Source: Acidocella aquatica (GTDB lineage: Bacteria; Pseudomonadota; Alphaproteobacteria; Acetobacterales; Acetobacteraceae). Taken from it: a DNA stretch of 35,440 bases. The stretch spans positions 1 to 35,440 of the forward strand of contig NZ_BSOS01000017.1 of NCBI RefSeq assembly GCF_030160635.1, given 5' to 3'. The position numbers and the translations under genes were made by a program. The notes under the pieces were generated by a model. The model worked only from the letters and a program-made list of their open reading frames with translations. It was not told where the DNA came from and searched no databases. Shown here one piece after another: positions 16,331 to 32,504 of this stretch. Position 1 is the stretch's first letter. Each line of letters opens with the position of its first letter.

Positions 16331-16380
16331 ACCATTTGCCCATGAAATAACCGGTGCGCAGAACGCGCGCCGCATTTGGC

Positions 16381-16386
16381 ATTATA
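16381..16386 (-). promoter_or_regulatory. -10 element for the Tas-type gene
   Basis: The minus strand reads TATAAT here, 50 bases before the start codon. The -35 region is poor (GCAATG at 17 bases), so an activator may be needed, or the match is chance. The same A+T-rich patch could serve norE on the plus strand. Confidence 0.4.
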
Positions 16387-16468
16387 TTTGTCGGCACGGG
16401 CGCCATTGCGCAAGTGGCCCCGGGCCGTTTCCCTTGACGGCGAAACGATCCGTCTGCACCTATGGCGC

Positions 16469-17047
16469 ATGCAGATAAAAGCCGTTCGCAGCACGCCGCA
16501 TCTACCGGGAGAGGAAGGACTTTGGGTCCTCATACTCGGCGACATGATGGTTTTTTCGCTGTTTTTCCTCACCTTCACCTATTACCGCGGGCAGGAGGTG
16601 GCGCTGTTCGCGCAATCGCAAAAAGCGCTCAGCCAATATTGCGGCATAATCAACACGGTGCTGCTGCTCACCAGCTCGTGGTTCGTTGCCAATGCGTTAA
16701 ACGCGGCCCGCGCAGGCGCTGGCCGGCGCGCCCAGCGGCTCTTCTCGCTGGCCGGGCTGTGCGGCCTGGGTTTCGTGGTGGTGAAGGTGATCGAGTATTC
16801 CGGGAAAATCGATGCCGGCATTACGCTGACCACCAATGATTTTTTTATGTTCTATTTCATGTTCACCGGCATCCATCTGGTGCATGTGCTAATCGGCCTT
16901 GCCGTGCTCTCCTATGCGTATCATCGCGCCGGGCGGGAGGTTTTGCGGCCAGGGGATTTGAGCGCCCTGGAATGCTGTGCCATTTTCTGGCATTTGGTCG
17001 ATTTTCTCTGGATCGTTCTCTTCGCTATTTTTTATCTGATGAAGTAG
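16469..17047 (+). CDS. norE: NorE-like heme-copper oxidase subunit III family protein
   Basis: A 192-residue membrane protein with five hydrophobic segments and cytochrome-oxidase subunit III features: the opening HLPGEEGLWVLILGDMMVFSLFF, then NTVLLLTSSWFV, the segment FYFMFTGIHLVHVLIGL and the ending CCAIFWHLVDFLWIVLFAIFYL. This short form, lacking the first two helices, is the NorE/NorQ-associated type that assists nitric oxide reductase. The frame is open back to 16376, but the ATG at 16469 gives the family N-terminus. It is followed by norF after four bases. No norC/norB catalytic genes are present in the window, so the partner enzyme must be elsewhere or be another heme-copper oxidase. 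Confidence 0.8.
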   Translation: MQIKAVRSTPHLPGEEGLWVLILGDMMVFSLFFLTFTYYRGQEVALFAQSQKALSQYCGIINTVLLLTSSWFVANALNAARAGAGRRAQRLFSLAGLCGLGFVVVKVIEYSGKIDAGITLTTNDFFMFYFMFTGIHLVHVLIGLAVLSYAYHRAGREVLRPGDLSALECCAIFWHLVDFLWIVLFAIFYLMK

Positions 17048-17051
17048 CGCC

Positions 17052-17333
17052 ATGTATTCAGTGTTATTCACCCGCGTCACCGCGGTATGGTTATTTCTGC
17101 TGTTCCTCACGGCATTTTCAGTGGCCATCGCCCACGGCGACCTGCTGGGGCTCACACAACGCATCGTAACGATCATTGTGGTCATCATCGCTTTTTTGAA
17201 AGTTCGTTTTGTCGGGTTGGAATTCATGGAACTGCGCGCCGCGCCATTGGCGTTGCGGGCGGTATTCGAGGCGTGGGTTGCGCTGGTCTGCTTGGGTATC
17301 CTGTTGCTGTATCTCTTTCCTGGCGTTTTTTAG
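17052..17333 (+). CDS. norF: NorF-like cytochrome oxidase subunit IV family protein
   Basis: A 93-residue protein with three hydrophobic segments that matches the small prokaryotic subunit IV/NorF family in length, topology and the central segment FLKVRFVGLEFMELRAAPLALR (the K-x-x-x-V-x-x-x-F-M-E-L-R pattern). It is co-transcribed with norE. Its TAG stop overlaps the TAA stop of the convergent kinase gene by two bases, so the two mRNAs are complementary at their 3' ends. Confidence 0.78.
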   Translation: MYSVLFTRVTAVWLFLLFLTAFSVAIAHGDLLGLTQRIVTIIVVIIAFLKVRFVGLEFMELRAAPLALRAVFEAWVALVCLGILLLYLFPGVF

Positions 17334-18766
17334 AGTGCGATGATTTCAGGTTGAGCACCATGGCCGCGCACGCACGCCACCGCGCTTGCGAATTTCATGT
17401 GGATGGCGGTGAAATCGTCCGCTTGCGGCGTAACCACCTGCCAGTCCTGCCCGGCGTGGCGCGATGTGCTTTCCAGTGATTCGCAAAACTGCAACATGCC
17501 CAGGGCGGTGAGGTCGGCGCTGGCGGCAACGCTGACCGGGTGGCCGAGGGCGTTGGCGAGAAACTGAGTGAAATAGGTGCTGCGGCTCAGCCCCCCGTCA
17601 ATCGAGACGCGGGCGAGCGGAGAGGTTTTGGCGAAGGCTGCGGCGAGCTCAGCGGCGCGCAGGGCGATGCCCTCCACCACGGCGCGGATGAGGGCGGCGC
17701 GCGGGGTCTCCAGGCTGAGGCCGAGCCAGGCGCCACGGGCGGTGCGGTCCCAATAGGGGCAGCCAAGCCCAGCCAGCGCGGGAACGAAGAACACGCCCTG
17801 CGCGGCGGCGGATGGGCCGCTCAGCGCGTCGATTTCGGCGAAATCAGCCAGCAGGCCAATGCCGCGCAGCCACTCCAGCGCGGAACCGGCGGTGAGGATG
17901 CCGCCCTCCAACGCGAATTGGGGGGCGGCAGCGCCGATCTGCCAGGCGGCGGTGGGGAGCAGGCCGGTTGTGCCGCCCATCACCGGCGCGGCGCCGGTGA
18001 GCCCCAATGCGAATGCGCCCGTGCCGAAGGTGATTTTAATGTCGCCGGGCTGCTGGCAGCCGTGGCCGAACAGCGCCGCCTGCTGGTCCACCGCGCTGGC
18101 GGTGAGCGTGGCGCCGCCGGGGAGCTGCCCGAAATCACCGGCGGTGGGGCGGATTTCGGGCAGGCATTCCAGCGGCACGCCGAAGAGCGCGCACAGGGTT
18201 TCATCCCATTGCAGGGTGCGCAGGTTGAGCAGGCTGGTGCGCGAGGCGGTGGAGACGTCGGTGGCGAAGGTGCCTGTCAGGCAGTCGATAAAAAACGCGT
18301 CGCTGGTGCCAAGGCGCAGGCGGCCCTGGCGGTGCAGGGCGCGGGCGTCCTGGGTGTTGTCGAGCAGCCAGCGCAATTTTGTGGCGGAGAAATAGGGGTC
18401 GAGTGGCAGGCCGGCACGGGCCAGGGTTTCGGCTTCCAGCCCGGCGGCCTTCAGGCGCTCTGTCTCGGGGCTTGTGCGGTTGTCCTGCCAGACGATGGCG
18501 TTGTGGAGGGGGCGTTTTGTTTGCGCGTCCCACGCCACTACGGTCTCGCCCTGGTTGGCGAGGCCGAGGCGGGCGAAGGGAGCTGCGGCGGCGAGCAGGG
18601 CACGGATGTTTTCCAGCAGCTCCAGCGGGTCGTGCTCGACCCATCCGGGGTGGGGGTGGAGCTGGCTGTGGCCGCGGCTGCCGGCCAGGCGGGTGGTGCC
18701 GTCAGCCATCCGCAGATAGGCTTTGGTGGAGGTGGTGCCTTGGTCAATGGCGAGGATGGGGTACAT
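17330..18766 (-). CDS. glpK: Glycerol-kinase-like FGGY carbohydrate kinase
   Basis: A 478-residue FGGY kinase, last gene of the long minus-strand operon. The ATP-phosphate motif is AIDQGTTSTKA at the N-terminus. Glycerol-kinase landmarks are GWVEHDP, AIVWQDNRT (Trp93), GLPLDPYFSATKLRWLLD (Tyr125) and DQQAALFGHG (Asp227 and Gln228), with the C-terminal VSIDGGLSRSTYFTQ. It would phosphorylate glycerol to sn-glycerol-3-phosphate. One key residue differs: glycerol kinases have NQRET, whose Arg contacts glycerol, while here the sequence is NQGET (Gly73). A related polyol is therefore possible. It is slightly shorter than the usual 495-505 residues. It starts one base after the upstream FAD oxidoreductase stop. 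The neighbours (GlpA-like dehydrogenase, FAD oxidoreductase) favour glycerol or a close analogue. Confidence 0.8.
   Translation of the reverse strand: MYPILAIDQGTTSTKAYLRMADGTTRLAGSRGHSQLHPHPGWVEHDPLELLENIRALLAAAAPFARLGLANQGETVVAWDAQTKRPLHNAIVWQDNRTSPETERLKAAGLEAETLARAGLPLDPYFSATKLRWLLDNTQDARALHRQGRLRLGTSDAFFIDCLTGTFATDVSTASRTSLLNLRTLQWDETLCALFGVPLECLPEIRPTAGDFGQLPGGATLTASAVDQQAALFGHGCQQPGDIKITFGTGAFALGLTGAAPVMGGTTGLLPTAAWQIGAAAPQFALEGGILTAGSALEWLRGIGLLADFAEIDALSGPSAAAQGVFFVPALAGLGCPYWDRTARGAWLGLSLETPRAALIRAVVEGIALRAAELAAAFAKTSPLARVSIDGGLSRSTYFTQFLANALGHPVSVAASADLTALGMLQFCESLESTSRHAGQDWQVVTPQADDFTAIHMKFASAVACVRGHGAQPEIIAL
17333..17355 (+). repeat. Dispersed 3'-end repeat, copy 1
   Basis: GAGTGCGATGATTTCAGG and five further bases begin at the last base of the norF stop codon and also encode the C-terminus of the convergent kinase. 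About 18 of 23 positions match copy 2 (32199) and 17 of 20 match copy 3 (35293). Confidence 0.6.
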
Positions 18767-18767
18767 G

Positions 18768-19961
18768 CTAATCCAGTATCACGGCCAGGGATTTGCGCCC
18801 GGCGAGGGCGGAGCTGGGCAGGGTGAGGCTGATGCGGCGCTCGGGCAGGATGCTGATGAGGCGCTCAAAGACCAGCCTGTCATCGGCCATGGCACGCAGG
18901 CGGCCTTTGTGGGCATGGCTGGCACGCCCGTAAAGCTGGATTTGCGCGCCGCCGGGGATGATGCGCTGCGGGTAGATGTAGCGCAGCGCGCCGCCGGGGG
19001 TGACCGGGATGGCGGCGTCCGGGGGTGGCAGCTCACCGCGCAGGGCGCGCAAAATCTGCGCGGCGGCGCGCGCGCCCTCCAGCGCCGCGAAGCCTGAGTG
19101 CTCCACCGGGCGGAGCAGATTGCCGGTGGCGAAATAGGCGGGGTCGGAGCAGCGGAAGAAATTATCGATGGCGGGGCCGTTGGTCGCGGGATCAATTTGC
19201 AGCCCGGCGCTACGCGGAAGCCATGCTTCGGGGGTGAACTGCCCGGTAAAGATCACGCCGTCGCAGGCGAGCTCCTCGCGCTGGCCGTTGCGCTCAAGCA
19301 GCACGGATTCCACGCGGTCGATGCCACGGATTTCCAGTAATTGCGTGTTGGTGCGCACCGGGACGCCAAAAATCGCGCGGGCGAAAAAACCGCCCGGGCG
19401 GCGGGCGAGGATGCGCGGACCGGGTTCGAGCATGGCCACGGGTTTGATGCCGGCATGGCGGGCGGTGAGGAGGGCTGAGAAGGCGACGAGTTCGGAGCCG
19501 ATGATGACCGGGCGGCGGAAGGGGATCTGCCCGGCCTGGGCCATTTCCTGGAAGGCGCCGGTGGTGGTGACACCCCAGGGCCGGGTGCCCGAGACCAGCC
19601 GCGCGCCGCGCGGTTTTTCGCGGATGCCGGTGGCAAGCAAAACAATGCGGCTTTGCAGATATTCGGGGCCGCCTGGCGTGCTGATGTGGAGATGCCCATT
19701 GGGCTCCATGGCAGTGACGGTGGTGTTGATGAGAATATCCGCCCCCGCCGCGCGGCGGATGAGTTCGGCTGCATAGCGCGGGCCGTTGTAGAGACGGTGC
19801 ATGTCCCAAACGCCCCAGCCTGGGTGATCGCAAAACCGGGGCAGGCCGCCCGGGTGCGGGTTGCGCTCCAGAACCTGCACGTCGCGGATACCGGCCTGGG
19901 CGAGGACGCGGGCGGCCGTGAGCCCGGCGGGGCCGGCGCCGATGATGGTGACATTATGCAT
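18768..19961 (-). CDS. NAD(P)/FAD-dependent oxidoreductase of a glycerol-type operon
   Basis: A 397-residue flavoprotein. The N-terminal dinucleotide motif is TIIGAGPAGLTAARVLAQAG, followed by NPHPGGLPRFCDHPGWG. A central segment LATGIREKPRGARLVSGTRPWGV and a second binding region PVIIGSELVAFSALLTARHAG follow. There is no redox-active CxxC. The last ~80 residues are divergent. In many bacteria a protein of this kind sits beside a GlpA-like dehydrogenase and glycerol kinase, acting like the GlpB electron-transfer subunit. The usual small third partner (DUF1667) is absent here. Its start lies within the end of the upstream dehydrogenase gene (8-base overlap). The electron acceptor is unknown. 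Confidence 0.78.
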   Translation of the reverse strand: MHNVTIIGAGPAGLTAARVLAQAGIRDVQVLERNPHPGGLPRFCDHPGWGVWDMHRLYNGPRYAAELIRRAAGADILINTTVTAMEPNGHLHISTPGGPEYLQSRIVLLATGIREKPRGARLVSGTRPWGVTTTGAFQEMAQAGQIPFRRPVIIGSELVAFSALLTARHAGIKPVAMLEPGPRILARRPGGFFARAIFGVPVRTNTQLLEIRGIDRVESVLLERNGQREELACDGVIFTGQFTPEAWLPRSAGLQIDPATNGPAIDNFFRCSDPAYFATGNLLRPVEHSGFAALEGARAAAQILRALRGELPPPDAAIPVTPGGALRYIYPQRIIPGGAQIQLYGRASHAHKGRLRAMADDRLVFERLISILPERRISLTLPSSALAGRKSLAVILD

Positions 19962-21327
19962 CGGCGAGACCAGGGATGTGGGGGGCGGCGAGCTCCAGAA
20001 CCCGGCGGCTGCAATAAAACCCCTGGCAGCGGCCCATCATGCAGCGGGTGCGCCGGCGCAGGCCCCCGATGGACCCGGCGGGGAGCGGGCCAGCGAGCGC
20101 GGCGGCAATTTCATCGCGCGTGACCAGTTCGCAATGGCAGATGATCTCCGAGCGGCCAGGTTGCGCGTATGGGCGCGGCAGGGCCTCGGTGAGGTTGGGG
20201 ACACGGGGCCAAAGCGGGCTGGGCAGTGGTTTGAGCGTGCCGAAATGCTCCTCGTAGAGGCCGCTCATGTGCCGCGCGATGCCGAGCGCGCCGGTCAGCC
20301 CCGTGGAGCGGATGCCCCCGGCGGTGATCCAATTTCGCGCGGGCAGCGCCTCGATCTGATAGTCCTTGAACTGGGTGGCGGGGCGCAGACCCGCGTAGGC
20401 GGTGGTGATCTCCATGCCCGAGAGCGCGGGCAGCATGCGGCATCCGGCTGCATGCAGGGCGTTGAGGGTGGCGGTCTCGGTGGTGGCGAGGCGGCGCTCG
20501 GGCTGGTCCTCGGCGGTGGGGCCGACCAGCAGGTTGCCAAACGCGGTGCGGGTGATGACGATGCCCTTGGTGCGCGCGGTGGGCACCGGCAGGATGATGG
20601 ATTGCACAAGATCGTGGGCTGGTTTGTCATACACCACGAACTGGCCCTTGCGCGGGGTGATGGTGAAGGGGCTGGGGCGGGCGATGGCCTCCACCAGATC
20701 GCCGAAATTACCGGCGCAGTTGATTACGATGCGCGCCTGAATGGGGGCGTCGTTTTTGATGTTCAGGGTCCAGGCGCCGCCGGTGAAACTGCCGGAGATG
20801 ACCTCGGCGTTGAGGCGCAGCGTGCCGCCGTTGGCAAGCGCCTGCCGGGCGTAGGCCAAGGGGGCGGACCAGGGGTCGATCAGGGCTTCGCCGGGAATCC
20901 AGACGCCGCCTTTAACATCATCGGCCAGGCCGGGTTCGCGGGCGCGCACCTGCGCGGCGGTCATCTGGGTAACGTCCATGACGCCGTTCTGGTGCGCCTG
21001 CGTGACGATGCCGGGGAGCTTTTCCAGCTCCTCCGCGCTCCAGGCGGCGACCATGGCGCCCGTTTCCAGCAGCGGCAGGCCCAGGCGCTCGTGGATTTCG
21101 CGGTACAGCCGGTAGCCCTCGCGCATGCAGGCAACCTCAAGGCTGCCGGGCGTGGCATCAAACCCCGTGTGCAGGATGGCGCTGTTGCCCTTGCTGGCGC
21201 CGGAGATGATGTCCGCCTCGCGCTCGATGAGGACGCAGCTGAGCCCGGCGAGGGTGAACGCGCGCCACGCGGCGCAGCCGACCACCCCGGCGCCGATGAT
21301 GGCGATATCGAAGCTTGGGGCGGTCAT
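19954..21327 (-). CDS. GlpA-like FAD-dependent glycerol-3-phosphate dehydrogenase with BFD [2Fe-2S] domain
   Basis: A 457-residue enzyme of the DAO/GlpA flavoprotein superfamily. The Rossmann motif is IAIIGAGVVGCAAWRAFTLAG and the GlpA-type segment SGASKGNSAILHTGFDATPG follows. The FAD domain ends near residue 370. A C-terminal BFD-like iron-sulfur domain begins ICHCELVTRDEI and ends RCMMGRCQGFYC, supplying the C-x-C and the two later cysteines. This combination is that of anaerobic-type GlpA and of related Firmicutes/Thermotoga enzymes, not aerobic GlpD. It should oxidise sn-glycerol-3-phosphate to dihydroxyacetone phosphate. L-2-hydroxyglutarate dehydrogenase-like activity is an alternative for the superfamily. 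Its start forms an ATGA overlap with the gene upstream. Confidence 0.82.
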   Translation of the reverse strand: MTAPSFDIAIIGAGVVGCAAWRAFTLAGLSCVLIEREADIISGASKGNSAILHTGFDATPGSLEVACMREGYRLYREIHERLGLPLLETGAMVAAWSAEELEKLPGIVTQAHQNGVMDVTQMTAAQVRAREPGLADDVKGGVWIPGEALIDPWSAPLAYARQALANGGTLRLNAEVISGSFTGGAWTLNIKNDAPIQARIVINCAGNFGDLVEAIARPSPFTITPRKGQFVVYDKPAHDLVQSIILPVPTARTKGIVITRTAFGNLLVGPTAEDQPERRLATTETATLNALHAAGCRMLPALSGMEITTAYAGLRPATQFKDYQIEALPARNWITAGGIRSTGLTGALGIARHMSGLYEEHFGTLKPLPSPLWPRVPNLTEALPRPYAQPGRSEIICHCELVTRDEIAAALAGPLPAGSIGGLRRRTRCMMGRCQGFYCSRRVLELAAPHIPGLADA

Positions 21328-22049
21328 GCCGGTTCCGTGTCGACCACCAGGACCGGGGTTTTTTTACGCGCGGCGATGAGCGCCAGCGTGGCGTTGCTGA
21401 AGGTGCCGCGCCTGGCGACGATGAGGCGGGCATCAGGCACTTGCGCGGCGGTGCCCGCCTGAGCATCCAGGCGAAGCAGCCGCTCTCCGGCAGCGCTGGC
21501 CAGGGCGGCGGCGATGCCCGCCGCGGGGTCGTTCGGGCCGGTGATGACGGCGAGGATGGGGCCGGATTTTGGCGCGGCACCGCCGGGCAGGATCAACACG
21601 CTGGCGGCGGTCTGAAACGCGCTTTCCAGTGTCCGGTCAAACGATTCGCTGGCATAGCCGCTCTGATGGATCACGGCGATGCTCTCGCCCCGGCCGTCTA
21701 TCGGCTGCTCCAGAACATCCTGGTCGTGGATAATCTGAAAACGGCGGGGGATGGCGGCGGCAGCGGACATTTGCGTGAACAGGCGCTCCGCCGCGGCGAT
21801 GGCGAGCGAGAGCTCAAGAGATACATTGTCCCCTTCCAGCGGCGCCCAGGCGCGTTCCCCAACACGGAATTCACGCGCAAAAGGCAGGGCGGCAAGACGA
21901 GCGGGGGCGGGATCAGCGAAAAACCGGCCAAACAGCTCCAGTTGCAACATCTGCGCGAATTCGGCGGCCTGCTGCACGATCAGCCGGTCGCAGCCACTGC
22001 AATGCAGGTCAACGACGATGCGTTTGAACGGCGGGCCGGCGCTGCTCAT
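21324..22049 (-). CDS. Unrecognised 241-residue protein, possibly UspA-like
   Basis: I do not recognise this protein with certainty. It is soluble, without signal peptide or membrane helix, and opens with a beta strand and helix, KRIVVDLHCSGCDRLIVQQAAEFAQMLQ, then ELFGRFFADPAPARLAALPFAREF. This resembles the first half of universal-stress-type alpha/beta folds. A second half (VLILPGG...GPILAVITGPND...ARLIVARRG...TPVLVVD) has the alternating strands of such a fold but no clear ATP-binding G-x2-G-x9-GS. A CxxC-like pair (Cys17, Cys20) is present. It is joined by ATGA overlaps to the Lon-like protease upstream and the GlpA-like gene downstream, so it is co-translated with both. It could be a substrate adaptor or sensor for the protease, which is speculation. 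Confidence 0.6.
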   Translation of the reverse strand: MSSAGPPFKRIVVDLHCSGCDRLIVQQAAEFAQMLQLELFGRFFADPAPARLAALPFAREFRVGERAWAPLEGDNVSLELSLAIAAAERLFTQMSAAAAIPRRFQIIHDQDVLEQPIDGRGESIAVIHQSGYASESFDRTLESAFQTAASVLILPGGAAPKSGPILAVITGPNDPAAGIAAALASAAGERLLRLDAQAGTAAQVPDARLIVARRGTFSNATLALIAARKKTPVLVVDTEPA

Positions 22050-24523
22050 GGCGCCACCGGCGGCGGAGCGGGTGGCGCAGCGGGCACGGGTTCGGGCGCG
22101 GCCGCGGGCGGTTTGGAATCGCCAAAATGCTGGCGGATGCTGGCGAAGGCGCGCAGCCGGTCTTCCACTTTTGCATTGACGCTGCCGGAGGTAAACCTGC
22201 CATCCGCCCCGCGCTCACCCGCAGCTATGCCGGTGAGCAGCGCGATACCCTCATCCGCCGTGCCGATCGCGTAGATGGTGAAGCGGCCCTGCTCGCAGGC
22301 TTCCACCACATCCTGGCGCAGCATGAGGTGCTGCACGTTCGATTTGGGGATCGCCACGCCCTGCGTGCCGGTGAGGCCGCGCTTGGCGCAGATATCGAAA
22401 AAACCTTCGATTTTCTCGTTGGCGCCGCCGATGGCCTGGATCTCGCCCTGCTGGTTGATCGAGCCGGTCACCGCGATATCCTGCCGCAGGGGCACATCCG
22501 CCAGAGCGGAGAGCAGCGTATAAAGTTCGGCGGAGGAGGCGCTGTCGCCTTCCACGCCGCCGTAGGATTGTTCCATCACCAGGCTGGCGTAGAGGGACAT
22601 CGACGTATCCAGCGCGAAGCGCCCGGCGAGGAAGCCGGAGAGGATCAGCACGCCCTTGGAATGGATCGGGCCGCCGAGTTTTGTCTCCCGCTCGATATCC
22701 AGCACATTGCCGCTGCCGGGGCGCACGCGGCAGGTGATGCGCGAGGGCCGCCCAAAGGCGAAGCCGCCAAGTTGCAGCACGCTGAGGCCGTTGATCTGCC
22801 CGGTGCGCGCGCCCTGCGTGTCGATAAGGGCGATTTCCCGCAGGATGGATTCCTGCGAGCGGTCGCGCAGGCGCGCGGCGCGGCGGATCTGTTCATCAAG
22901 CGCCTTTTGCACATCGGCGCGCGTGGTGACCGTGCGCCCCGCCTCGCCGGCGCGGAAGTCGGCTTCAATAATCAGGTCGCGCAATTCGCCGGTGAGCAGG
23001 GAGAGCTTTCCGGAATTCTCGGCCATCCGGGCGGCCTGTTCGATAATCAGGCCAACGGCCTCGCATTCCAGCGGGCGCAGCTTATCCTCGTAGGCGAGAT
23101 TGGCGATGATATGCGCCATCGCCATCTCATTGGCCTCCGAACGGTCGAAATCATCCTCGAAATCGGCCAGGACCTTGAAATGCTCGGTGAGTTCAGGGTC
23201 GTACATCGCGAGCATATAGTAGAGCATGCGGTCGCCGAAGAGTACGATTTTCAGGTCCAGCGGGATCGGGTCCGGCTCCAGCGTGACGGTGCTGGTGAGG
23301 CCGAGGAAGTGGTTGACATCCTCGATGACGATCTCGCCCTGCTTGAGCAGGCGTTTCAGCGCCGTCCAGCTGAACGGCTCGGTGAGCAGGCTGCGCACGT
23401 CGAGCAGCAGGTAGCCGCCGTTGGCGCGGTGCATGGCGCCGGGTTTGATGAGGCGGAAATTGGTGAGCAGCGCCCCCTGCTGCGACATATATTCGATGCG
23501 CCCGGTGAGATGGCCCAGCGTGGGGTGCATCTCCTGCACAATGGGCGCGCCGGTTGCCGTGGCGTCATGGCTGACCATGACATTGACCTCGTAACGGTCA
23601 AACGGGCCGCCCGGCCCCATGGCGGCGCTCTGCGCTTCCTCGCCTTCGGGTTTGACAATGAACATGCCGATGTTCTCGATCAGGTCGGCGCGCACCGCCT
23701 CAAGATGCGCGCTCACCTGCGGCATGTCGGCGAACTTGGTCTTGGCGTCCTCGATCAGCGGGGCGATCGTGAGGCTCGCGGTGTCACGGTTGAGTTTGCG
23801 CACCTCCTCGCGCCGGACTTTTTCCCAGGCGGGGAACTGGTGCATGATATGCTCCAGCTCAGGCTCAAGGGCCTCGATGGTTTTTTGCACCTCCCGCTGC
23901 TTGGCCTCGTCCCAGGTGCGGAATTCATCCGGGGAGATGACCGTGCCATTTTTGGCCGGGGCAAAGGCGAAGCCAAGCGGGGTGCGCAGCAGCACGAGCT
24001 GGGCGGCCTCCGCCTTGTCGCGCAGCGCGGTGAAGGCGTCGGCCTGTTTTTTCTGGAAAACTTCGTCCACGGCGCTGCGGCGTTTCTGGTAGTCCTCGCT
24101 CTCGAAGGCCATCGGCAGGGCAGACTTTAAATCCTCGATCAGCTCGTGCATCGCCTTCTGGAACAACGGCGCCCGCCCGGCCGGCAGGCCGATGGCGGTG
24201 GGGCGGTGAGGCGCCGCGAAATTATGCACATAGACCCAGTCCGAGGGGGCGGGGCGGTCTGCGCGGGCGGAGGCGAGCATGGTTTCGACCGATTGCTGCA
24301 TGCGCGCGCCGGGGGCACCGATGGCAAACAGATTGAAACCCGGCTTACTGACGCGGCTGCCAAAACGCACGGCGTCCAGCGCGCGTTTCTGGCCGGTGAA
24401 GCCATCCATCGGCGGACATTCGGCAGTGGTTTTGAAAGTAAGCGCGGCAAGATTGGCGGGGCGGCGCAGCAGCGCGGGCGCAACGGCCAGGGAGGGAAGA
24501 ACGGCGCGTGTCTCTGTGGGCAT
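22046..24523 (-). CDS. Lon-family protease with degenerate AAA domain (AAA_32/LonH-like)
   Basis: An 825-residue protein of the Lon-related family typified by E. coli YcbZ. The C-terminal Lon protease domain is intact: Ser661 in GVEGDSASSAELY and Lys704 in GGANEKIEGFFD, 43 residues apart exactly as in Lon. The domain just before has the typical INGLSVLQLGGFAFGRPSRI. The N-terminal AAA_32 region starts near residue 40 (DGFTGQKRALDAVRFG), but the P-loop reads GAPGARMQQS instead of GxxGxGKT, so ATP binding may be lost or altered. A coiled-coil insert spans about 130-260. An ANGGYLLLDVRSLL segment marks the Walker B-like part. The C-terminus has a Pro/Ala-rich tail. A GAGG ribosome site precedes the ATG. 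It follows the nitroreductase gene after 65 bases. Confidence 0.88.
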   Translation of the reverse strand: MPTETRAVLPSLAVAPALLRRPANLAALTFKTTAECPPMDGFTGQKRALDAVRFGSRVSKPGFNLFAIGAPGARMQQSVETMLASARADRPAPSDWVYVHNFAAPHRPTAIGLPAGRAPLFQKAMHELIEDLKSALPMAFESEDYQKRRSAVDEVFQKKQADAFTALRDKAEAAQLVLLRTPLGFAFAPAKNGTVISPDEFRTWDEAKQREVQKTIEALEPELEHIMHQFPAWEKVRREEVRKLNRDTASLTIAPLIEDAKTKFADMPQVSAHLEAVRADLIENIGMFIVKPEGEEAQSAAMGPGGPFDRYEVNVMVSHDATATGAPIVQEMHPTLGHLTGRIEYMSQQGALLTNFRLIKPGAMHRANGGYLLLDVRSLLTEPFSWTALKRLLKQGEIVIEDVNHFLGLTSTVTLEPDPIPLDLKIVLFGDRMLYYMLAMYDPELTEHFKVLADFEDDFDRSEANEMAMAHIIANLAYEDKLRPLECEAVGLIIEQAARMAENSGKLSLLTGELRDLIIEADFRAGEAGRTVTTRADVQKALDEQIRRAARLRDRSQESILREIALIDTQGARTGQINGLSVLQLGGFAFGRPSRITCRVRPGSGNVLDIERETKLGGPIHSKGVLILSGFLAGRFALDTSMSLYASLVMEQSYGGVEGDSASSAELYTLLSALADVPLRQDIAVTGSINQQGEIQAIGGANEKIEGFFDICAKRGLTGTQGVAIPKSNVQHLMLRQDVVEACEQGRFTIYAIGTADEGIALLTGIAAGERGADGRFTSGSVNAKVEDRLRAFASIRQHFGDSKPPAAAPEPVPAAPPAPPPVAP

Positions 24524-24551
24524 TTATTTCCTCACTTCGTTTTTAAGCTCC

Positions 24552-24566
24552 GGGGCTTGGCGCCCC
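24552..24566 (-). other. Hairpin in the gap before the Lon-like gene
   Basis: GGGGC-N5-GCCCC lies within the 65-base gap between the nitroreductase and protease genes. There is no clear T-run after it on the minus strand, so it is more likely an mRNA processing or stability element, or a weak attenuator, than a full terminator. Confidence 0.35.
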
Positions 24567-24588
24567 TGTTTGAATTTGTGATTTGGAT

Positions 24589-25167
24589 TTATGCGGCGTA
24601 GCCGACGGTCTGCGCGAAGGTGACAAACTGCTCCTTGGGCAATTTTAGGGTCTGGGCGAGTTTTTCCCGCTCAATGGCGCCACGGAAGACGGTGGCAAGC
24701 CCCTCCGCCGCGCAGAAGAGGTAGACATTTTGCCCGATACAGCCGGCATCCACCGAGGCATAGAGGCGGCGTTCCACCTCCGGCACTTCCATGCGCTCGC
24801 CATGGGCGACATAGATGAGGTCGAGCGGCGCATCGCCCGTGAAATCCTGCAGGCCCGTTGCGTCGCGGATGTCAGCCGGCAGATGCGGCAGCAGGCGGTG
24901 GGTGGCCGGGTCATAGAGCCAGGTGCCGTCCGCCATGGCCACATAGATATCCATGACCATGACATGGCGCCAGTAGGGCGCGGTGCGGTCGCCGTTTTCG
25001 CGGTTGATGCCGCAGGCGGCCCATAAAAGATCGGAGAGGAGTTGCTCGGGGATGGGCTTGGATGAGTAGCTGCGCGTGGAATGGCGCAGGTTGAGGGCAT
25101 TGCGCAATGGCATCCCGCCTTCGCGGTTGGGCGGGGGGAGATCGTGCGGCTTCAAATGGCGCGTCAT
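24589..25167 (-). CDS. Nitroreductase-fold FMN oxidoreductase
   Basis: A 192-residue member of the nitroreductase/SagB-like superfamily. The FMN phosphate-binding segment is RHSTRSYSSKPIPEQLLSDL, followed by LLWAACGINRENGDRTAPYW, the family's A-x-G-I-N-R...R-T-A-P pattern. A C-terminal GCIGQNVYLFCAAEGLATVFRGAI is the second conserved block that builds the dimeric flavin site. Such enzymes transfer hydride from NAD(P)H to quinones, nitro groups or ring substrates; the physiological substrate here is unknown. The usual S-A-x-N after RTAP is replaced by YWRH, so the active site may differ. An AGGAG ribosome site precedes the ATG. It lies 50 bases after the second permease and before the Lon-like gene. 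Confidence 0.85.
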   Translation of the reverse strand: MTRHLKPHDLPPPNREGGMPLRNALNLRHSTRSYSSKPIPEQLLSDLLWAACGINRENGDRTAPYWRHVMVMDIYVAMADGTWLYDPATHRLLPHLPADIRDATGLQDFTGDAPLDLIYVAHGERMEVPEVERRLYASVDAGCIGQNVYLFCAAEGLATVFRGAIEREKLAQTLKLPKEQFVTFAQTVGYAA

Positions 25168-25217
25168 GCTGGCACTCCTGATTTACGAGGCGGATCGCTT
25201 TTACGGTGGTTTTCCAT

Positions 25218-26345
25218 TTAATCCAAGGATTTACGGAAGCGAAGAATACTGATGGCAAGCATGCCCGCCGCCAGCGCGGCCAGCGCGGCAAGGTCTGGCC
25301 AGAGCGCGCCCAGCCCCACGCCTTTAAGGAAGATGGCGCGGACAACAACAAGAAAATAGCGCAGCGGGTTGATCAAGGTGAACCATTGCAGCACCCGCGG
25401 CATGGCGGCGATGGGAAAGGCGAAGCCGGATAATGTGAACAAAGGATTGATGAAGAAAAAGTTCAACGCGAAAGCCTGTTGCTGCGTGCGCGAGAAGGTG
25501 GAGAGCAGCAGGCCGAGACCGACCGCGGCGAGCAGGAAGAGCGTGGCGCCGAGCAGCAGGACCAGCGGATTGCCGGCGAAGGGGATGTCGAACCACAGCG
25601 TACCGAAAATGGTGACCAGGGCGACATCCCCCAGGCCGATCAAAAAAAACGGCACGGTCTTGCCCAGGATAAACTCAAACGGCCGGATCGGGCTGACCAT
25701 GATCTGTTCCAGCGTGCCCAGCTCACGCTCGCGCACCACGGCGAAAGCGGTGAGGCTGACGACCTGCATCAGCGTGAGCGTGCCGATGACGCCGGGGATG
25801 AAGAACCAGACATCGTTCAGCCCCTCGTTGAACCAGGGGCGCTGTTCCAGCGAGACCGTGATGCCGCCCGGCGGCGTGGCGGGTTGCGGCCAGGCACTGG
25901 CCATGGCGCCGGCCTGGAAGCGGGCGGTGATCTGGCTGACATAGCCAAGCGCGATGAGCGCGGTGTTGGAGTTGCTGCCATCGACGATGACCTGCAGGGG
26001 CGCGCCCTGGCCGTTGAGCAGTTGGCGGGCGAAGCCAGCGTGGATGATGATGGCGACGGTCGCCGTGCCGGTGTCGATATCGCGCGTGACCTGCGCCTGG
26101 CTGGCGGCCATGTCCACGATATTGAAGCGGCCGGTGGCGTAAAACCGCGAGAGCAGGGCGCGGCTGGCGCTGCTGTGGTCGAGGTCCAGCACGGTGGTGG
26201 CGACATGGCTGATGGTGAAGGTGGCGGCGTAGCCGTAGATGACCACCTGCAGGATGAGCGGCACGACGAGGCGGAAAATCGCCCAGCGGTCGCGCTTGAG
26301 TTCCAGGAACTCCTTCATGAACATGACGTAGAGACGGTCCAGCAC
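25218..26345 (-). CDS. ABC-2 type transporter permease (second, YbhR-like)
   Basis: A 375-residue permease. An N-terminal helix (FRLVVPLILQVVIYGYAATF) is followed by a large extracytoplasmic region of about 150 residues, then five further helices. The coupling segment is ERELGTLEQIMVSPIRPFEFILGK, the E-R-E-x-G-T-x-E-x-x-x-x-x-P motif of ABC-2 exporters such as YbhS, YbhR and YhhJ. The start is uncertain: a GTG at 26345 begins MLDRLYVMFMKEFLELKRDRW, the usual N-terminus, four bases after the upstream stop. An ATG at 26324 is the alternative. The frame extends to 26471, but that part overlaps the other permease and is not family-like. Confidence 0.85.
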   Translation of the reverse strand: MLDRLYVMFMKEFLELKRDRWAIFRLVVPLILQVVIYGYAATFTISHVATTVLDLDHSSASRALLSRFYATGRFNIVDMAASQAQVTRDIDTGTATVAIIIHAGFARQLLNGQGAPLQVIVDGSNSNTALIALGYVSQITARFQAGAMASAWPQPATPPGGITVSLEQRPWFNEGLNDVWFFIPGVIGTLTLMQVVSLTAFAVVRERELGTLEQIMVSPIRPFEFILGKTVPFFLIGLGDVALVTIFGTLWFDIPFAGNPLVLLLGATLFLLAAVGLGLLLSTFSRTQQQAFALNFFFINPLFTLSGFAFPIAAMPRVLQWFTLINPLRYFLVVVRAIFLKGVGLGALWPDLAALAALAAGMLAISILRFRKSLD

Positions 26346-26349
26346 GGCG

Positions 26350-27486
26350 CTAATCCAGCCGCTTGCGGAAGGCGCGGGCGGCCAGCCAGAGCACCGCCAC
26401 CGCGTAGAGCAGCAGCGCGGCGACCGAGCTTGCCATCTCGGTGAGCGAGCTGCCCTTGAGGAATTCATCACGCAAAATGGTGACGTAGTAGCGCGCGTAA
26501 ACCAGCAGGCTGATGGCGCGGATGGAGGCGGGCATCTGGTCGAGGGGGAAGGTGTAGCCCGAGAGCATGGCGATGGGCAGCATCGTGACCATCAGCGCGA
26601 TCTGGCTGGCGCCGAGCTGGTTGTGGATTCGCACCGAGAGCAGATAGCCGATGCCCATGACGACGACGCCGAACAGCGCGGTGGTGAGGATGAGCGTGAA
26701 CACACTGCCGCGGAAGGGCACCTCGAACCAGAAGGCGGCGGCGAGCAGACAGAACGCGGCATCGAGCAGGCCGATGACAAAATACGGGCTAAGCTTGCCG
26801 ATCATCAGCTCGGTGGAGGTTACCGGGGTGGAGATGAGCTGCTCCATGGTCCCGCGCTCCCACTCACGCGCGACGGTGAGCGAGGTGAGCTGCGCGCCAA
26901 CCAGGGCGAGAATGATCGCGACCACGCCGGGGATGATGAAATTGCGGCTGTCCAGCGTCTCGTTGAACCAGACGCGCGATTGCAGGCCGATGCTGCCGGC
27001 CGTGGGCGGGCGGACGCCGTGCTGGGCGTCCCACCGGCTGGCGAAGGTGGCGGCGGTCTGGGCGATGACGCCCTGGGCGTAGCCGGAGGCGATGTTGGTG
27101 GTGTTGGCGTCCGTGCCGTCAAATATCGCCTGCACCTCGGCCTGGCCCGTCTGCGCCAGCACGCGTGAGAAGCTCACCGGAATCACCAAAGCGCCGATGC
27201 AGGTGCCGTCATCCATCGCGGCGCGCACGCCGTGGTCGCTGTTAAGGATGGCGGTGGTTCTGAACCAGCCGGAGGCGGTGAAATCCTGCACCATTTCGCG
27301 GCTGGTCTGGCTGTTCTCCTGATCGTAAATGCACAAGGGCACATGTTTGATATCCAGGCTGATGCCGTAGCCGAGCAGGACCATCTGCATCAGCGGCATG
27401 AGCAGCGCGATGGCGAGGCTGCGCGGGTCGCGCCAGACCTGCAAGGTCTCCTTGTAGGCGATGGCCAGGATGCGGCGCAGGTTCAT
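26350..27486 (-). CDS. ABC-2 type transporter permease (first, YbhS-like)
   Basis: A 378-residue permease beginning MNLRRILAIAYKETLQVWRDPR, the typical cytoplasmic start of YbhS/RbbA-type permeases. One helix (LAIALLMPLMQMVLLGYGIS) precedes a long periplasmic loop. The motif EWERGTMEQLISTPVTSTELMIGK then introduces five C-terminal helices. It pairs with the next permease to form a heterodimeric channel. The ATG at 27486 gives a 4-base ATGA overlap with the ATPase gene upstream; a longer open frame to 27717 is a shadow of that ATPase gene. The likely role is export of a drug, lipid or other hydrophobic compound. Confidence 0.88.
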   Translation of the reverse strand: MNLRRILAIAYKETLQVWRDPRSLAIALLMPLMQMVLLGYGISLDIKHVPLCIYDQENSQTSREMVQDFTASGWFRTTAILNSDHGVRAAMDDGTCIGALVIPVSFSRVLAQTGQAEVQAIFDGTDANTTNIASGYAQGVIAQTAATFASRWDAQHGVRPPTAGSIGLQSRVWFNETLDSRNFIIPGVVAIILALVGAQLTSLTVAREWERGTMEQLISTPVTSTELMIGKLSPYFVIGLLDAAFCLLAAAFWFEVPFRGSVFTLILTTALFGVVVMGIGYLLSVRIHNQLGASQIALMVTMLPIAMLSGYTFPLDQMPASIRAISLLVYARYYVTILRDEFLKGSSLTEMASSVAALLLYAVAVLWLAARAFRKRLD

Positions 27487-28424
27487 GGGCTGGCCTCCTG
27501 CCGCCGGGAGACGAGCTGCACGAACACATCCTCCAGGCTGGGCACGATGGCGCGGATGGGGCCGGCTTCCATGCCCTGGGCGGCGAGGTAGGCGAGCAGC
27601 GCCTCGCCGCTGGTGCCCGCGCGCAGCAGCACATGCAGCTTGTCCGCGAAAATAGCGGCCTCGATGACGCCTGGCGCCTGGCGCGTGGCGGCCAGGGTGG
27701 CGCCCAGCGTGGGGCACTCCAGCTCGAAGAGCTGCCCGCCAAGGTCATGGCGGCGCAACTCGCCGGGGCTGCCGATGGCAATGAGCTTCCCCGCGTCGAT
27801 CAGCGCGATGCGGTTACAATATTCGGCCTCGTCCATGTAATGGGTGGAGACCAGAACGGTCACGCCATCAGCCGCCAGGGTGTGGATGAGGTCCCAGAAG
27901 CGGCGCCGCGCCTCGGGCTCCACGCCGGAGGTTGGCTCGTCGAGGAACAGCACCGGAGGGCGGTGCAATATGGCGCAGCCCAGCGCCAGGCGCTGCTTCC
28001 ATCCCCCGGCCAGCGTGCGCACCAGCGCGCCCTCGCGCCCCTCAAGCCCCGCCATGGACACGGCAAAGGCGATGCGCTCCGGGATTTGCTTGCGCGGCAC
28101 CTGATAGATACCGGCGAAGAAGCGCAGGTTCTCATGCACCGTGAGGTCGCCGTAGAGGGAGAATTTCTGCGACATGTAGCCGATGTGCAGGCGCACGATG
28201 TCCGGCTGGCGGACGATATCATATCCCGCGACGCTGGCGCTGCCCGAGGTGGGGCGCAGCAGGCCGCAAAGCAGGCGGATGGTGGTGGATTTTCCCGCGC
28301 CATTGGGGCCGATGAAACCGGCGACTTCTCCTTTCGCAATCGAGAGGTCCAGATGGTCCACCGCCGTGAAGGCGCCGAATTTTTTCGTCAGCCCCTGGGC
28401 GATGACGGCGGGGGCGGCGTTCAT
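27483..28424 (-). CDS. ABC transporter ATPase (second subunit)
   Basis: A 313-residue nucleotide-binding protein. Walker A is GPNGAGKSTTIRLL, the Q-loop region is IGYMSQKFSLYGDLTV, and Walker B is PPVLFLDEPTSGVEPEA with the switch histidine in VLVSTHYMDEAEYC. The signature reads LAGGWKQRLALG rather than LSGGQ, a variant seen in the ATPase halves of YbhF/RbbA. The C-terminal ~80 residues form the small domain typical of drug-exporter ATPases. It matches one half of E. coli YbhF, where both ATPase domains are fused; here they are separate genes. ATGA overlaps join it to both neighbours. Confidence 0.93.
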   Translation of the reverse strand: MNAAPAVIAQGLTKKFGAFTAVDHLDLSIAKGEVAGFIGPNGAGKSTTIRLLCGLLRPTSGSASVAGYDIVRQPDIVRLHIGYMSQKFSLYGDLTVHENLRFFAGIYQVPRKQIPERIAFAVSMAGLEGREGALVRTLAGGWKQRLALGCAILHRPPVLFLDEPTSGVEPEARRRFWDLIHTLAADGVTVLVSTHYMDEAEYCNRIALIDAGKLIAIGSPGELRRHDLGGQLFELECPTLGATLAATRQAPGVIEAAIFADKLHVLLRAGTSGEALLAYLAAQGMEAGPIRAIVPSLEDVFVQLVSRRQEASP

Positions 28425-29356
28425 GCCGGGGCTCCGCCGCCAACCAGGGCCACGAACACATCCTCGATGGCGGGTTCGATGCGGCTGATGCCGGTGACGG
28501 CGATGTTTTGGGCATCCAGCCTGGCCCGCAGCTCCGGCGCGCGGCGGGCCGCATCGTCAACGCGCACATTAACCCGGTCGCCCATCAACAGCAGGCCGAG
28601 CACGCCGGGGGCATCGGCGAGGGCCGCGCGGACGGCGCGGGGATCTGCCGCGGTGATCGCGAGCAGCATCCCCGGCATCGCTTGTTTCAGCCTGGCCGGC
28701 GTGTCGCAATAATGGATTTTGCCAGCATCCATCAGTGCCAGGCGCGAGCAGCGCTCGGCTTCGTCCATATAGGCGGTGGAGAGCACGATGGTGACGCCGC
28801 TTTCGCGCAGATTGTAGAGAATGGCCCAGAAATCGCGCCGCGAGACAGGGTCGACCCCGGTGGTGGGCTCGTCCAGCAGCAATACGCTGGGGGTGTGGAT
28901 GAGTGCGCAGACCAGGCCGAGCTTCTGCTTCATGCCGCCCGAGAGCTGCCCGGCAAGGCGTTTTTGAAAAGGGCTCAGCCCCGCCGCTTCCAGCAGCTCC
29001 CGCGCGCGGGCGAGGCGGATTTTGCGCGGCACGGAGAACAGCTCGGCATAGAAGAAGATGTTCTCGGCAACGGTCAGGTCCTCATAGAGGCCGAAGCGCT
29101 GCGGCATGTAGCTGAGCAGGGATTTTATCCCCTCTGGGTTGGCGATGACGTCAATGCCCTCCACGGCGATGCCGCCGGAATCAGGCCGGAGTACGCCTGC
29201 CAGCATCCGCATGACCGTGGTTTTCCCCGCGCCGTCCGGCCCGGCGAAGCCGAAAATTTCGCCACGCTGAATGCTGAAGCTGACATCACTCACCGCCGCC
29301 GTGGCGCCGAAGCTGCGCACCAGGTTCTGCGCGATGACGGCGGCCCCGTTATTCAT
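28421..29356 (-). CDS. ABC transporter ATPase (first subunit)
   Basis: A 311-residue nucleotide-binding protein. Walker A is GPDGAGKTTVMRMLAGVL, the signature LSGGMKQKLGLVCALIH, and Walker B PSVLLLDEPTTGVDPVSRRD. The switch position reads LSTAYMDEAERC, with Ala-Tyr instead of the usual Thr-His, so the catalytic histidine is missing here although it is present in the partner. The GPDGAGKTT variant of Walker A is typical of the N-terminal half of YbhF and RbbA. The ATG overlaps the stop of the HlyD-type gene. With the second ATPase it should make a heterodimer with one consensus and one degenerate ATP site. Confidence 0.93.
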   Translation of the reverse strand: MNNGAAVIAQNLVRSFGATAAVSDVSFSIQRGEIFGFAGPDGAGKTTVMRMLAGVLRPDSGGIAVEGIDVIANPEGIKSLLSYMPQRFGLYEDLTVAENIFFYAELFSVPRKIRLARARELLEAAGLSPFQKRLAGQLSGGMKQKLGLVCALIHTPSVLLLDEPTTGVDPVSRRDFWAILYNLRESGVTIVLSTAYMDEAERCSRLALMDAGKIHYCDTPARLKQAMPGMLLAITAADPRAVRAALADAPGVLGLLLMGDRVNVRVDDAARRAPELRARLDAQNIAVTGISRIEPAIEDVFVALVGGGAPA

Positions 29357-30339
29357 TGCCCGGCGGGCAGCAACGCGATTTTGGCGTCGGCGGGCATGCC
29401 GGGGAGCAACTCATGGGTTGGGTTGGCGATGTCGATCCGCACCCGGTAGACGAGCGTGATCCGCTCGGCATAGGTTTCCACTGTTTTGGGGGTGAATTCA
29501 GCCACCGGCGAGATGAAGCTGATGCGCCCGGCGTAGGTTTTGCCGGGGTAGGTGTCGGTGGTGACGTCCACGGCCTCGCCAAGGCGGATTTTGCCAAGGT
29601 CCGGCTCATTGACATAAGCGCGCAGCCAGACATGGCCAAGATCATCGAGCGTGACGATGGCGACGCCGGGGGCGGCGAGCTGGCCCAGCTCCGCCTCGCG
29701 CACGGCGATGACGCCGCTGAAAGGCGCGCGCAGCGTGGTGTAGGAGAGGGTGATGTCATCCAGCCCCAGCCTCGCCTGGGCGGCGGCCTCGTTGGCCTTG
29801 GCGAGGCCGATATTGGCTTGCGCCACCTGCACCAATGCGCTGTCATGTGCCACGGTGGCGGTGGCCTGCTGGGCGGCGGTGCGGGCGAGGTCGCGTGCCT
29901 GCACCGAGATCGTGCGGGTGTTCACCAGCGCCTGGGCGCGCTGATAGTCCTGCTGCTTCTGAATCTGGTCAAACTGGTCGCTGGCCAGCGTGCTTTGCGC
30001 GGCAATGAGGTTGCTCTGGCTCACGGCAACCTGGGCGGTGGCGGTCTCTAAATTGGCGGTGTCTATGGCCACCTGCTGGCGGTAGAGGCGGTCATCCACC
30101 TGGGCCAGCACGGTGCCCGCCTGTATGGCCGCACCTTCATCAAAAGGCAGCGCCACGATCGGCGCCTGCACGCCGTTAAAACTAAGGACGCTCTCATGCG
30201 CCTCGATATTACCAGAGACGATGATCTGCCCCGCATTCGGCGCGGGGCCGAACAAACCCGGCGCATACCAAAAAGCCAGGCCGCCCGCGATAACAACAAC
30301 GGCGCCACCATACAGCAGCAGGTTTTTCCAGCCAGTCAT
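29353..30339 (-). CDS. HlyD-family membrane-fusion (adaptor) protein
   Basis: A 328-residue periplasmic adaptor, first gene of the long operon. An uncleaved signal anchor (LLLYGGAVVVIAGGLAFWYA) is followed by the lipoyl half IIVSGNIEAHESVLSF and a long alpha-helical hairpin rich in Ala/Gln (about 90-200). The second lipoyl half then contains LSYTTLRAPFSGVIAVREAELGQLAAPG, the family signature. A beta-barrel domain with GKTYAGRISFISPVAEFTPKTV closes the protein, as in YbhG and YhiI. It would connect the ABC permeases to an outer-membrane factor; no TolC-like gene is in the window. The ribosome site is weak. An FNR-type box lies 106 bases upstream. Confidence 0.93.
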   Translation of the reverse strand: MTGWKNLLLYGGAVVVIAGGLAFWYAPGLFGPAPNAGQIIVSGNIEAHESVLSFNGVQAPIVALPFDEGAAIQAGTVLAQVDDRLYRQQVAIDTANLETATAQVAVSQSNLIAAQSTLASDQFDQIQKQQDYQRAQALVNTRTISVQARDLARTAAQQATATVAHDSALVQVAQANIGLAKANEAAAQARLGLDDITLSYTTLRAPFSGVIAVREAELGQLAAPGVAIVTLDDLGHVWLRAYVNEPDLGKIRLGEAVDVTTDTYPGKTYAGRISFISPVAEFTPKTVETYAERITLVYRVRIDIANPTHELLPGMPADAKIALLPAGQ

Positions 30340-30416
30340 GTGTTGTCAGCGCATGCTGCCAGGATGTGAAACACGGAATGATCTGCCAGCATTTTCGGGC
30401 AACTCCTTGTTCTTTT

Positions 30417-30458
30417 TATATAGCCCAGCCAAGCGGCGCAGACCTTGACCTGGATCAA
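30417..30458 (-). promoter_or_regulatory. FNR/Dnr/FixK-type promoter of the 11-gene operon
   Basis: TTGACCTGGATCAA (30445-30458) matches the FNR/Anr/Dnr/FixK consensus TTGAT-N4-ATCAA at nine of ten defined positions. On the minus strand a TATATA element occupies 30422-30417. If this is the -10, transcription starts near 30410 and the box is centred at about -41.5, the standard class II activator position. The leader to the HlyD-type start is about 70 bases. The box is symmetric and could also influence the divergent CYTH-CHAD gene, but spacing on that side is less convincing. Confidence 0.65.
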
Positions 30459-30678
30459 CCGGGGCGATGCCATATGATTATGCCGGGAATTGCGCCGAGA
30501 ACAACCATGTTGGCGTTGGGAGGTTTTGGACAAGGGGCCGCATCCGTTCTAAGCTCTCCCCGATTGATTTTAGCACGGCCGGGTTACTCCTCCAGCTGAC
30601 GGACCCAATATTTTGACCGCACCAGAGACCATCGGCGCTTTGCCAGGCACCCCGGAAATTCCGCCGGTGAGCGCCGCA

Positions 30679-32221: not shown

Positions 32222-32279
32222 AATGCGCTGTCAGCCGGGATTCAGTTTTTTATGCAAATCAAATAAGGTGTATTTTCAT

Positions 32280-32504
32280 ATGAGTGGTGCCATTGTCCTT
32301 GAGTCCACCATCACATGCCCGCAGTGCGGCGTATCCAAGACCGAAACCATGCCGGTCAACGCCTGTCAGTATTTTTATGAATGCACTGGCTGTGGCGCAT
32401 TGTTGCGCCCCAAGCCGGGCGACTGCTGCGTGTTTTGCTCATATGGCACCGTGGCGTGCCCGCCGGTTCAAATGGCGGGCGGTAGAGATGGCTGCTGCGC
32501 GTAA
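32280..32504 (+). CDS. GDCCVxC-family small cysteine-rich protein
   Basis: A 74-residue soluble protein rich in cysteine: CPQC at 13-16, Cys29, CTGC at 35-38, then GDCCVFCSYG (47-56), Cys60 and a terminal Cys-Cys-Ala. The two CxxC pairs suggest a zinc or metal knuckle; the GDCCVFCSYGTVACPP block is the signature of the GDCCVxC (seleno)protein family. Some relatives carry selenocysteine, but no in-frame TGA occurs here, so this is a cysteine form. The ATG at 32280 has an AAGGTG ribosome site; the frame opens 19 codons earlier without resemblance. Function is unknown; metal or thiol stress is a guess. It follows the CYTH-CHAD gene by 80 bases. Confidence 0.82.
   Translation: MSGAIVLESTITCPQCGVSKTETMPVNACQYFYECTGCGALLRPKPGDCCVFCSYGTVACPPVQMAGGRDGCCA

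Follow-up and report, generated by a model that had tools for sequence, protein, structure and literature searches.

We analyzed a 35,440-nucleotide contig of Acidocella aquatica (NZ_BSOS01000017.1, assembly GCF_030160635.1; this whole stretch of DNA is called the window below), which carries an array of eleven genes for an exporter, a nitroreductase-fold protein, a LonC-like protease (LON) with its partner USPL, and a three-gene kinase/flavoenzyme module, here called the polyol module. Checking the open reading frames (ORFs) with their likely starts, we found, as a first-pass annotation had described, that all eleven follow one another without interruption on the minus strand from 30339 to 17330. 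The ten junctions are, in order, overlaps of 4, 4 and 4 bases, gaps of 4, 50 and 65, overlaps of 4, 4 and 8, and a gap of 1, so that 6 of 10 junctions are overlaps of 4-8 bases, in agreement with the at least six overlapping genes claimed earlier. Ahead of the array lies an FNR/Dnr-type box, TTGATCCAGGTCAA, which fits the palindrome TTGAY-N4-RTCAA exactly; the 22 bp from this box to a predicted -10 element TATATA put the centre of the box at -41.5 relative to the predicted start (Table 1). We interpret the locus as a composite low-oxygen operon, in which one FNR-type promoter near 30410 probably drives eleven genes that come from three modules.

Table 1 The eleven-gene array and its upstream elements in the window
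Feature	Coordinates	Strand	Remark
FNR/Dnr-type box TTGATCCAGGTCAA	30445..30458	-	centre at -41.5 from predicted start 30410
Predicted -10 element TATATA	30417..30422	-	22 bp after box
Possible 18-codon leader ORF with ribosome-binding site	30336..30392	-	putative, by eye
HlyD-type membrane-fusion protein (YbhG-like)	29353..30339	-	
ABC ATPase 1 (DrrA-type)	28421..29356	-	
ABC ATPase 2 (DrrA-type)	27483..28424	-	
ABC-2 permease 1	26350..27486	-	
ABC-2 permease 2	25218..26345	-	likely GTG start
Nitroreductase-fold, SagB-like flavoprotein	24589..25167	-	
LonC-like protease (LON)	22046..24523	-	Ser and Lys dyad motifs, P-loop lysine lost
USPL, LON partner	21324..22049	-	distant, unproven kinship to universal stress proteins
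FAD-dependent glycerophosphate-oxidoreductase-like protein with C-terminal BFD [2Fe-2S] domain	19954..21327	-	first annotated as GlpA
Pyridine-nucleotide-disulphide-type FAD/NAD(P) oxidoreductase, Pyr_redox_2	18768..19961	-	
FGGY kinase, GlpK-like	17330..18766	-	Gly for signature Arg83

The box was the only match to its pattern in the window, compared with 0.07 expected in dinucleotide shuffles (7 of 100 shuffles contained one). A spacing of -41.5 corresponds to class II activation, and the window shares both the palindromic box and this predicted spacing with class II promoters of the FNR/Anr/Dnr/FixK type. Box and 22-bp spacing were kept in all three operon heads available, those of the window and two relatives, in which the -10 hexamer reads TATACA and CATGTA at unchanged spacing. 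All three heads agree at 12 of 14 box positions, 7 of 22 spacer positions and 4 of the 20 positions immediately upstream. Alphaproteobacterial FNR/FnrL-type systems use the box TTGAT-N4-ATCAA and have regulons with oxidase, heme-pathway and universal-stress genes (PMC5398030, PMC2908626). As far as the consulted sections of these FnrL/Anr regulon accounts extend, they name no operon uniting an exporter, a LonC-like protease and an FGGY kinase module (PMC5398030, PMC2908626).

Genome-wide, the pattern TTGAY-N4-RTCAA occurred at 42 sites, compared with 3 for the reversed control pattern. Ten proteins encoded beside boxes were picked by eye and scanned against Pfam, and seven fit or suggest an FNR regulon: Cyt_bd_oxida_I (cydA), ALAD (HemB), Prismane (Hcp), a cNMP-binding Crp-type regulator, a CBS protein, a member of the ATP synthase alpha/beta family and FNR with HTH_Crp_2. 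The remaining three (T2SSE, a ring hydroxylase and BcsQ) are not typical targets. On contig 92 of the same genome, a box was also seen by eye before a thiolase-like gene. HTH_Crp_2 matched nine proteins in the genome, three of them over the cut-off. One Crp-family protein carries CDDCGARHSGLC and a further cysteine, a four-cysteine pattern that we take to mark oxygen-sensing FNR proteins, and a box lies upstream of its own gene. A Dnr-like Crp-family protein that lacks the N-terminal cysteine set adjoins hcp, and one box is common to both genes. Box, conserved spacing, a site-rich genome and the presence of such regulators together support a predicted class II FNR-type promoter before the eleven genes, as the first-pass annotation had proposed from the box at -41.5.

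We next consider how far the array is conserved. The LON gene was sought in 61 genomes, 37 of them in the window's genus; within the genus, 12 gave a strong match (E <1e-100) and 25 did not, some of these being incomplete. The same gene order, for which a neighbourhood search had been proposed, was found in full in one relative (L070, genome G032) and in part in four others: from permease 1 to the kinase in L068, from HlyD to LON in L069, and from ATPase 2 to USPL in L066 and L067. The partial arrays break off at contig edges, with one exception: in L067, USPL is followed by other genes, and the last three genes are absent. Otherwise L066-L069 agree up to the contig ends. Between the window and G032, all eleven genes had dN/dS values of 0.11-0.23, at dS 0.5-0.8 and protein identities of 73-89%. 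These comparisons support a gene order kept under purifying selection. The nitroreductase is 87-91% identical in clade members. The window, L068 and L070 have the dehydrogenase in position; in G010, where it alone of the last three genes was looked for, it lies at a contig edge with 93% identity. The stop of the putative leader ORF overlaps the HlyD start (ATGA); the leader has 18 codons in G032 as well, and from the corresponding ATG in G010 the frame continues into HlyD.

Outside this clade, the parts of the array live apart. The LON-USPL pair stood without the other nine genes in all five same-genus loci fetched (L071-L075), and in each an exact box precedes the estimated LON start by 72-91 bp; in L071-L073 a TATA-like hexamer follows 22 bp after the box. 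The clade's own LON loci (n=5), by contrast, contained no exact or one-mismatch box from -300 to +60, and in the window no box lies within 800 bp upstream of LON, which suggests that the upstream promoter serves this gene. We compared 97 LON loci, 17 fetched and the best 80 of at least 591 from other genomes (G018, with LON split across contig ends, was not in this count). A USPL match adjoins LON in 15 of the 97, of which nine belong to the genus, five to Rhodospirillales-type or unplaced proteobacterial genomes and one to a gammaproteobacterial assembly. After four loci with <200 bp upstream were set aside, an exact box lay near LON in 13 of 93 loci, compared with 0.00 expected in simple shuffles. 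The other 80 had none, so this protease is by no means always under FNR control. Among the best 80, the nearest named LON relatives came from Neoroseomonas, Caldovatus and an Acetobacteraceae assembly, in line with a likely placement of the genome in or near Acetobacteraceae.

The exporter and nitroreductase were sought in 199 other genomes drawn from the order. Only G034 and G016 encode a permease of at least 70% identity (70-71%), and both have the five exporter genes as a separate unit with an exact box before HlyD. The window's own genome carries a second five-gene exporter of the same kind on contig 92 (L282), at 34-52% identity. For the nitroreductase, this set, which includes no clade member, gave weak matches only, the best being 37% over 78 residues. 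Relatives about 50% identical occur on plasmids of Variovorax, Methylosinus, Cupriavidus and Methylocystis, next to an ATP synthase cluster, a PHA depolymerase with a CBS protein, or otherwise mobile elements and unrelated genes; no exporter of this kind was annotated in the three plasmid stretches around them.

The polyol module has a different distribution. Among 200 genomes of the order, the window's own included, 13 others encode dehydrogenase relatives of at least 56% identity, and each of these carries the complete three-gene module in unchanged order. The search at these stand-alone modules was for exact boxes, and none preceded the module in any of the 13 fetched stretches; L243 has a single box, 6 kb from the module beside an hcp-like gene. 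In two of five order loci listed by eye (L233, L237), the module has a DeoR/GlpR gene nearby. The module also occurs on plasmids of several Alphaproteobacteria and a Streptomyces. Seven plasmid modules were viewed, five near a DeoR/GlpR gene (L291, L292, L294, L295, L296) and two with none listed (L293, L297); their surroundings include TRAP transporters in three, ABC transporters in three, amino-acid permeases in two and ethanolamine ammonia-lyase in one. As the modules live apart in relatives, we rejected an ancient eleven-gene system, and the set provides no evidence for one co-evolved pathway. Judged from these sequence comparisons, it is a lineage-specific fusion, within a small group of one genus, of units that are separate in relatives. 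The earlier idea of one unit coupling all parts thus stands as far as a conserved order under purifying selection is concerned, and has to be revised in that the unit is a composite of separate modules.

The exporter shares an HlyD-type adaptor, DrrA-type ATPase parts and two ABC-2 permeases with E. coli YbhGFSR, according to the part of that account consulted (PMC7190983). The adaptor scored 203.7 bits against PRK03598 (NF002939), below the cut-off of 393; we take this family to be YbhG. The ATPase of E. coli YbhGFSR is a single fused protein, whereas the window has two separate ATPase genes, and an Azoarcus relative encodes the ATPases as one 581-residue gene. The label YbhGFSR-like therefore fits the kinds of component, but not the adaptor score or the split ATPase genes. 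The annotated nitroreductase was recovered as a nitroreductase-fold, SagB-like flavoprotein.

The protease is Lon-like, as first annotated, and more specifically LonC-like, with both dyad motifs and a degenerate P-loop. Its best solved relative is MtaLonC, described as a LonC-type protease with a degenerate AAA module (PMC3391209). Like MtaLonC, the window protease combines dyad motifs with a degenerate AAA module; unlike it, it has a USPL partner and is FNR-linked. Its P-loop region, GAPGARMQQ, lacks the lysine that MtaLonC keeps (GPPSLGKHE; PMC3391209). With search patterns, both dyad motifs were found in 61 of 98 relatives, the window included, and a GK-type motif was kept in 16 of the 75 with a recognisable P-loop region, so loss of the P-loop lysine is not peculiar to this clade. 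The LonC-like protease is probably ATP-independent. For USPL, no Usp domain match was found in the window protein; one of 15 aligned homologues matched Pfam Usp (1.3e-16), and a profile search of the PDB returned no USP chain and no convincing match. These results hint weakly at a kinship to universal stress proteins.

The labels GlpA and GlpK given to two of the last three genes did not survive comparison. The kinase scored 412.8 bits against TIGR01311 (GlpK; cut-off 590.35) and the dehydrogenase 121.2 bits against the GlpA equivalog (cut-off 552.8). In the portion consulted, the GlpK literature gives Arg83, Glu84, Tyr135, Asp245 and Phe270 as a signature identical among GlpK clusters (PMC3245297). 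By alignment, with positions assigned by eye, the window kinase keeps four of these five and has Gly for Arg83, as do all 23 module kinases examined, the window's included. The genome has a separate 720.6-bit GlpK with Arg at this position, as well as a GlpD over its cut-off on contig 67, beside which a GlpK-like kinase has Thr (NQTET vs NQRET). The module has the FGGY fold and a BFD-domain dehydrogenase in common with E. coli GlpK/GlpABC, and an anaerobic role is plausible; unlike that system, the window kinase lacks signature Arg83 and the dehydrogenase falls far below the GlpA cut-off. We therefore rejected a canonical GlpABC/GlpK reading on both scores and the Gly for Arg83. No GlpB was among the matches listed for the dehydrogenase's partner protein (25 of 46 NCBIfam families), and the scan of the operon proteins showed no GlpB/GlpC-like protein (no genome-wide search for one was made).

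The pair is nearer to another known arrangement. The dehydrogenase neighbour is an NADH-oxidase-like (Pyr_redox_2) gene, a homologue of which adjoins in all 13 other modules. DUF1667, which we take to be the MOX subunit, had no match in the genome and was found in the Thermotoga maritima control. The dehydrogenase retains the NS..HTG and arginine motifs of Mycoplasma glycerophosphate oxidase, residues presumed to have a functional role in that enzyme, so that the phosphorylated product may still be similar to glycerol 3-phosphate. In GlpTk-NOX-MOX glycerol-3-phosphate oxidoreductases, the consulted part of the literature describes GlpTk and NADH-oxidase genes as neighbours, and the window likewise has a glycerophosphate-type flavoenzyme gene followed by an NADH-oxidase-like gene (PMC11962113). 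Unlike GlpTk-NOX-MOX, the window module has a BFD domain, an attached FGGY kinase and no DUF1667 match.

Several observations weigh against a single FNR-type promoter for all eleven genes. Fifteen of the 41 sites outside the window fall within an ORF of the mechanical list from which ORF membership was judged, so not all sites are promoters. The -10 spacing is less regular at the stand-alone units, with no TATA-like hexamer 22 bp after the box in L074, L075, L280 and L281, and the more distant exporter copies (L282, L283; permeases 39% identical) lack a box directly before HlyD. No dehydrogenase was found in G002 and G015, two of the six clade genomes (93% and 92% complete; best match <30 bits). 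A terminator-like stem bearing a T run lies within the oxidoreductase gene (19408-19390, minus strand); the scan found 16 such stems in total, close to the shuffled mean of 10.8 +/- 3.6. The 50 and 65 bp gaps on either side of the nitroreductase could conceal a promoter, and together with the independence of LON-USPL and the polyol module in relatives they speak for two or more transcription units, with the exporter and nitroreductase read from the FNR promoter and LON-USPL and/or the last three genes from internal promoters. Pointing the same way, a weak stem-loop of 5 pairs, one changed on both sides, lies in the 65-bp gap between nitroreductase and LON (24524-24588, minus strand); pairing is kept in 5 of 6 clade sequences at 4 of 5 positions, and z-scores ranged from -3.84 to +1.33 in the five sequences folded. 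An intercistronic hairpin is weakly suggested; an intrinsic terminator was rejected, as no T run follows the stem. We nevertheless regard separate units as rather unlikely: a consensus scan of 16300-31000 found no sigma-70-like site versus 2.1 expected (for that promoter type only), LON has no box in the clade although all five other same-genus loci have their own, and LON, USPL, dehydrogenase and oxidoreductase overlap successively. A divergent CYTH-CHAD gene, conserved in position in L069 and L070, could also be served by the box; that it alone is served, and that the place before the exporter is incidental, seems very improbable given the 22-bp spacing to a -10-like hexamer kept on the exporter side in all three heads and the box before HlyD in the two close stand-alone exporters.

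Two further readings concern the regulator and the last three genes. The regulator could be the Dnr-like, NO-type protein rather than the oxygen-sensing FNR, which would make the operon a nitrosative-stress unit; the protein adjoining hcp under a common box would be a candidate, an exporter and a nitroreductase would suit such a role, and Dnr sites are indistinguishable from Anr boxes by sequence in the account consulted (PMC5398030). We consider this unlikely, as the four-cysteine FNR gene has its own upstream box, boxes precede oxygen-type targets, and no heme-copper NO reductase catalytic subunit is evident among PF00115 proteins, the two in the genome being COX1 proteins read by eye as oxidase types. 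The last three genes might instead form a plain anaerobic route for glycerol, in which a dehydrogenase pair for glycerol 3-phosphate accompanies a further glycerol kinase, and this is a real possibility that we place somewhat short of even. The best solved relatives are glycerol kinases for the kinase and glycerophosphate oxidase for the dehydrogenase, and the retained oxidase motifs and the recorded GlpTk/NADH-oxidase gene pair agree with it. Set against these are the kinase score below the GlpK cut-off, the dedicated GlpK and GlpD elsewhere in the genome, the invariant Gly83 and the mixed transporter and ethanolamine ammonia-lyase neighbours of the plasmid modules.

Around the array, three further features were noted. 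A COX3 and COX4_pro pair (16376-17333, plus strand), NorE/NorF-like by eye, is convergent with the operon; as PF00115 was found only on other contigs, the two may be orphan subunits. A small protein rich in cysteine, which contains the stretch GDCCVFCSYG and has no Pfam match, is encoded at 32223-32504 (plus strand), and two tandem large membrane proteins, alike by eye, at 425-5253 (plus strand), the second matching YfhO.

For the composite low-oxygen operon, we infer three source modules: an FNR-box exporter, a LON-USPL pair that elsewhere in the genus stands behind a box of its own, and a polyol-phosphate module that has no exact box elsewhere and often lies near DeoR/GlpR. The SagB-like nitroreductase would have joined them. 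An FNR-controlled exporter may have come to lie before the nitroreductase and LON-USPL, the box before LON may have been lost in this clade, and the polyol-type module may have been captured downstream, or captured earlier and lost again in two members, thereby coming under low-oxygen control. The trigger would be a fall in O2 via the four-cysteine FNR or a rise in NO via the Dnr-like protein. One transcript would then yield the exporter and, to counter protein and energy stress, a non-ATP-driven protease with USPL; the module would phosphorylate a glycerol-like alcohol and pass electrons from FAD through [2Fe-2S] and FAD to NAD(P). A bolder proposal, which we hold to be doubtful, is a promoter hand-over super-operon in which the Gly83 FGGY kinase lineage and the flavoenzyme pair use a non-glycerol alcohol as electron source or sink in hypoxia, coupled to energy-sparing proteolysis by the non-ATP-driven protease.

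A literature search of a limited collection for the gene set, its parts together and FNR in related genera found no description. What is new is the combination in one operon; the parts are mostly known, and the kinase is unusual. The locus may present a case in which separate FNR-controlled units and a locally regulated metabolic module became one operon within a single genus. It also contains a kinase/flavoenzyme module whose kinase differs from the GlpK signature but which is easily labelled as glycerol metabolism.

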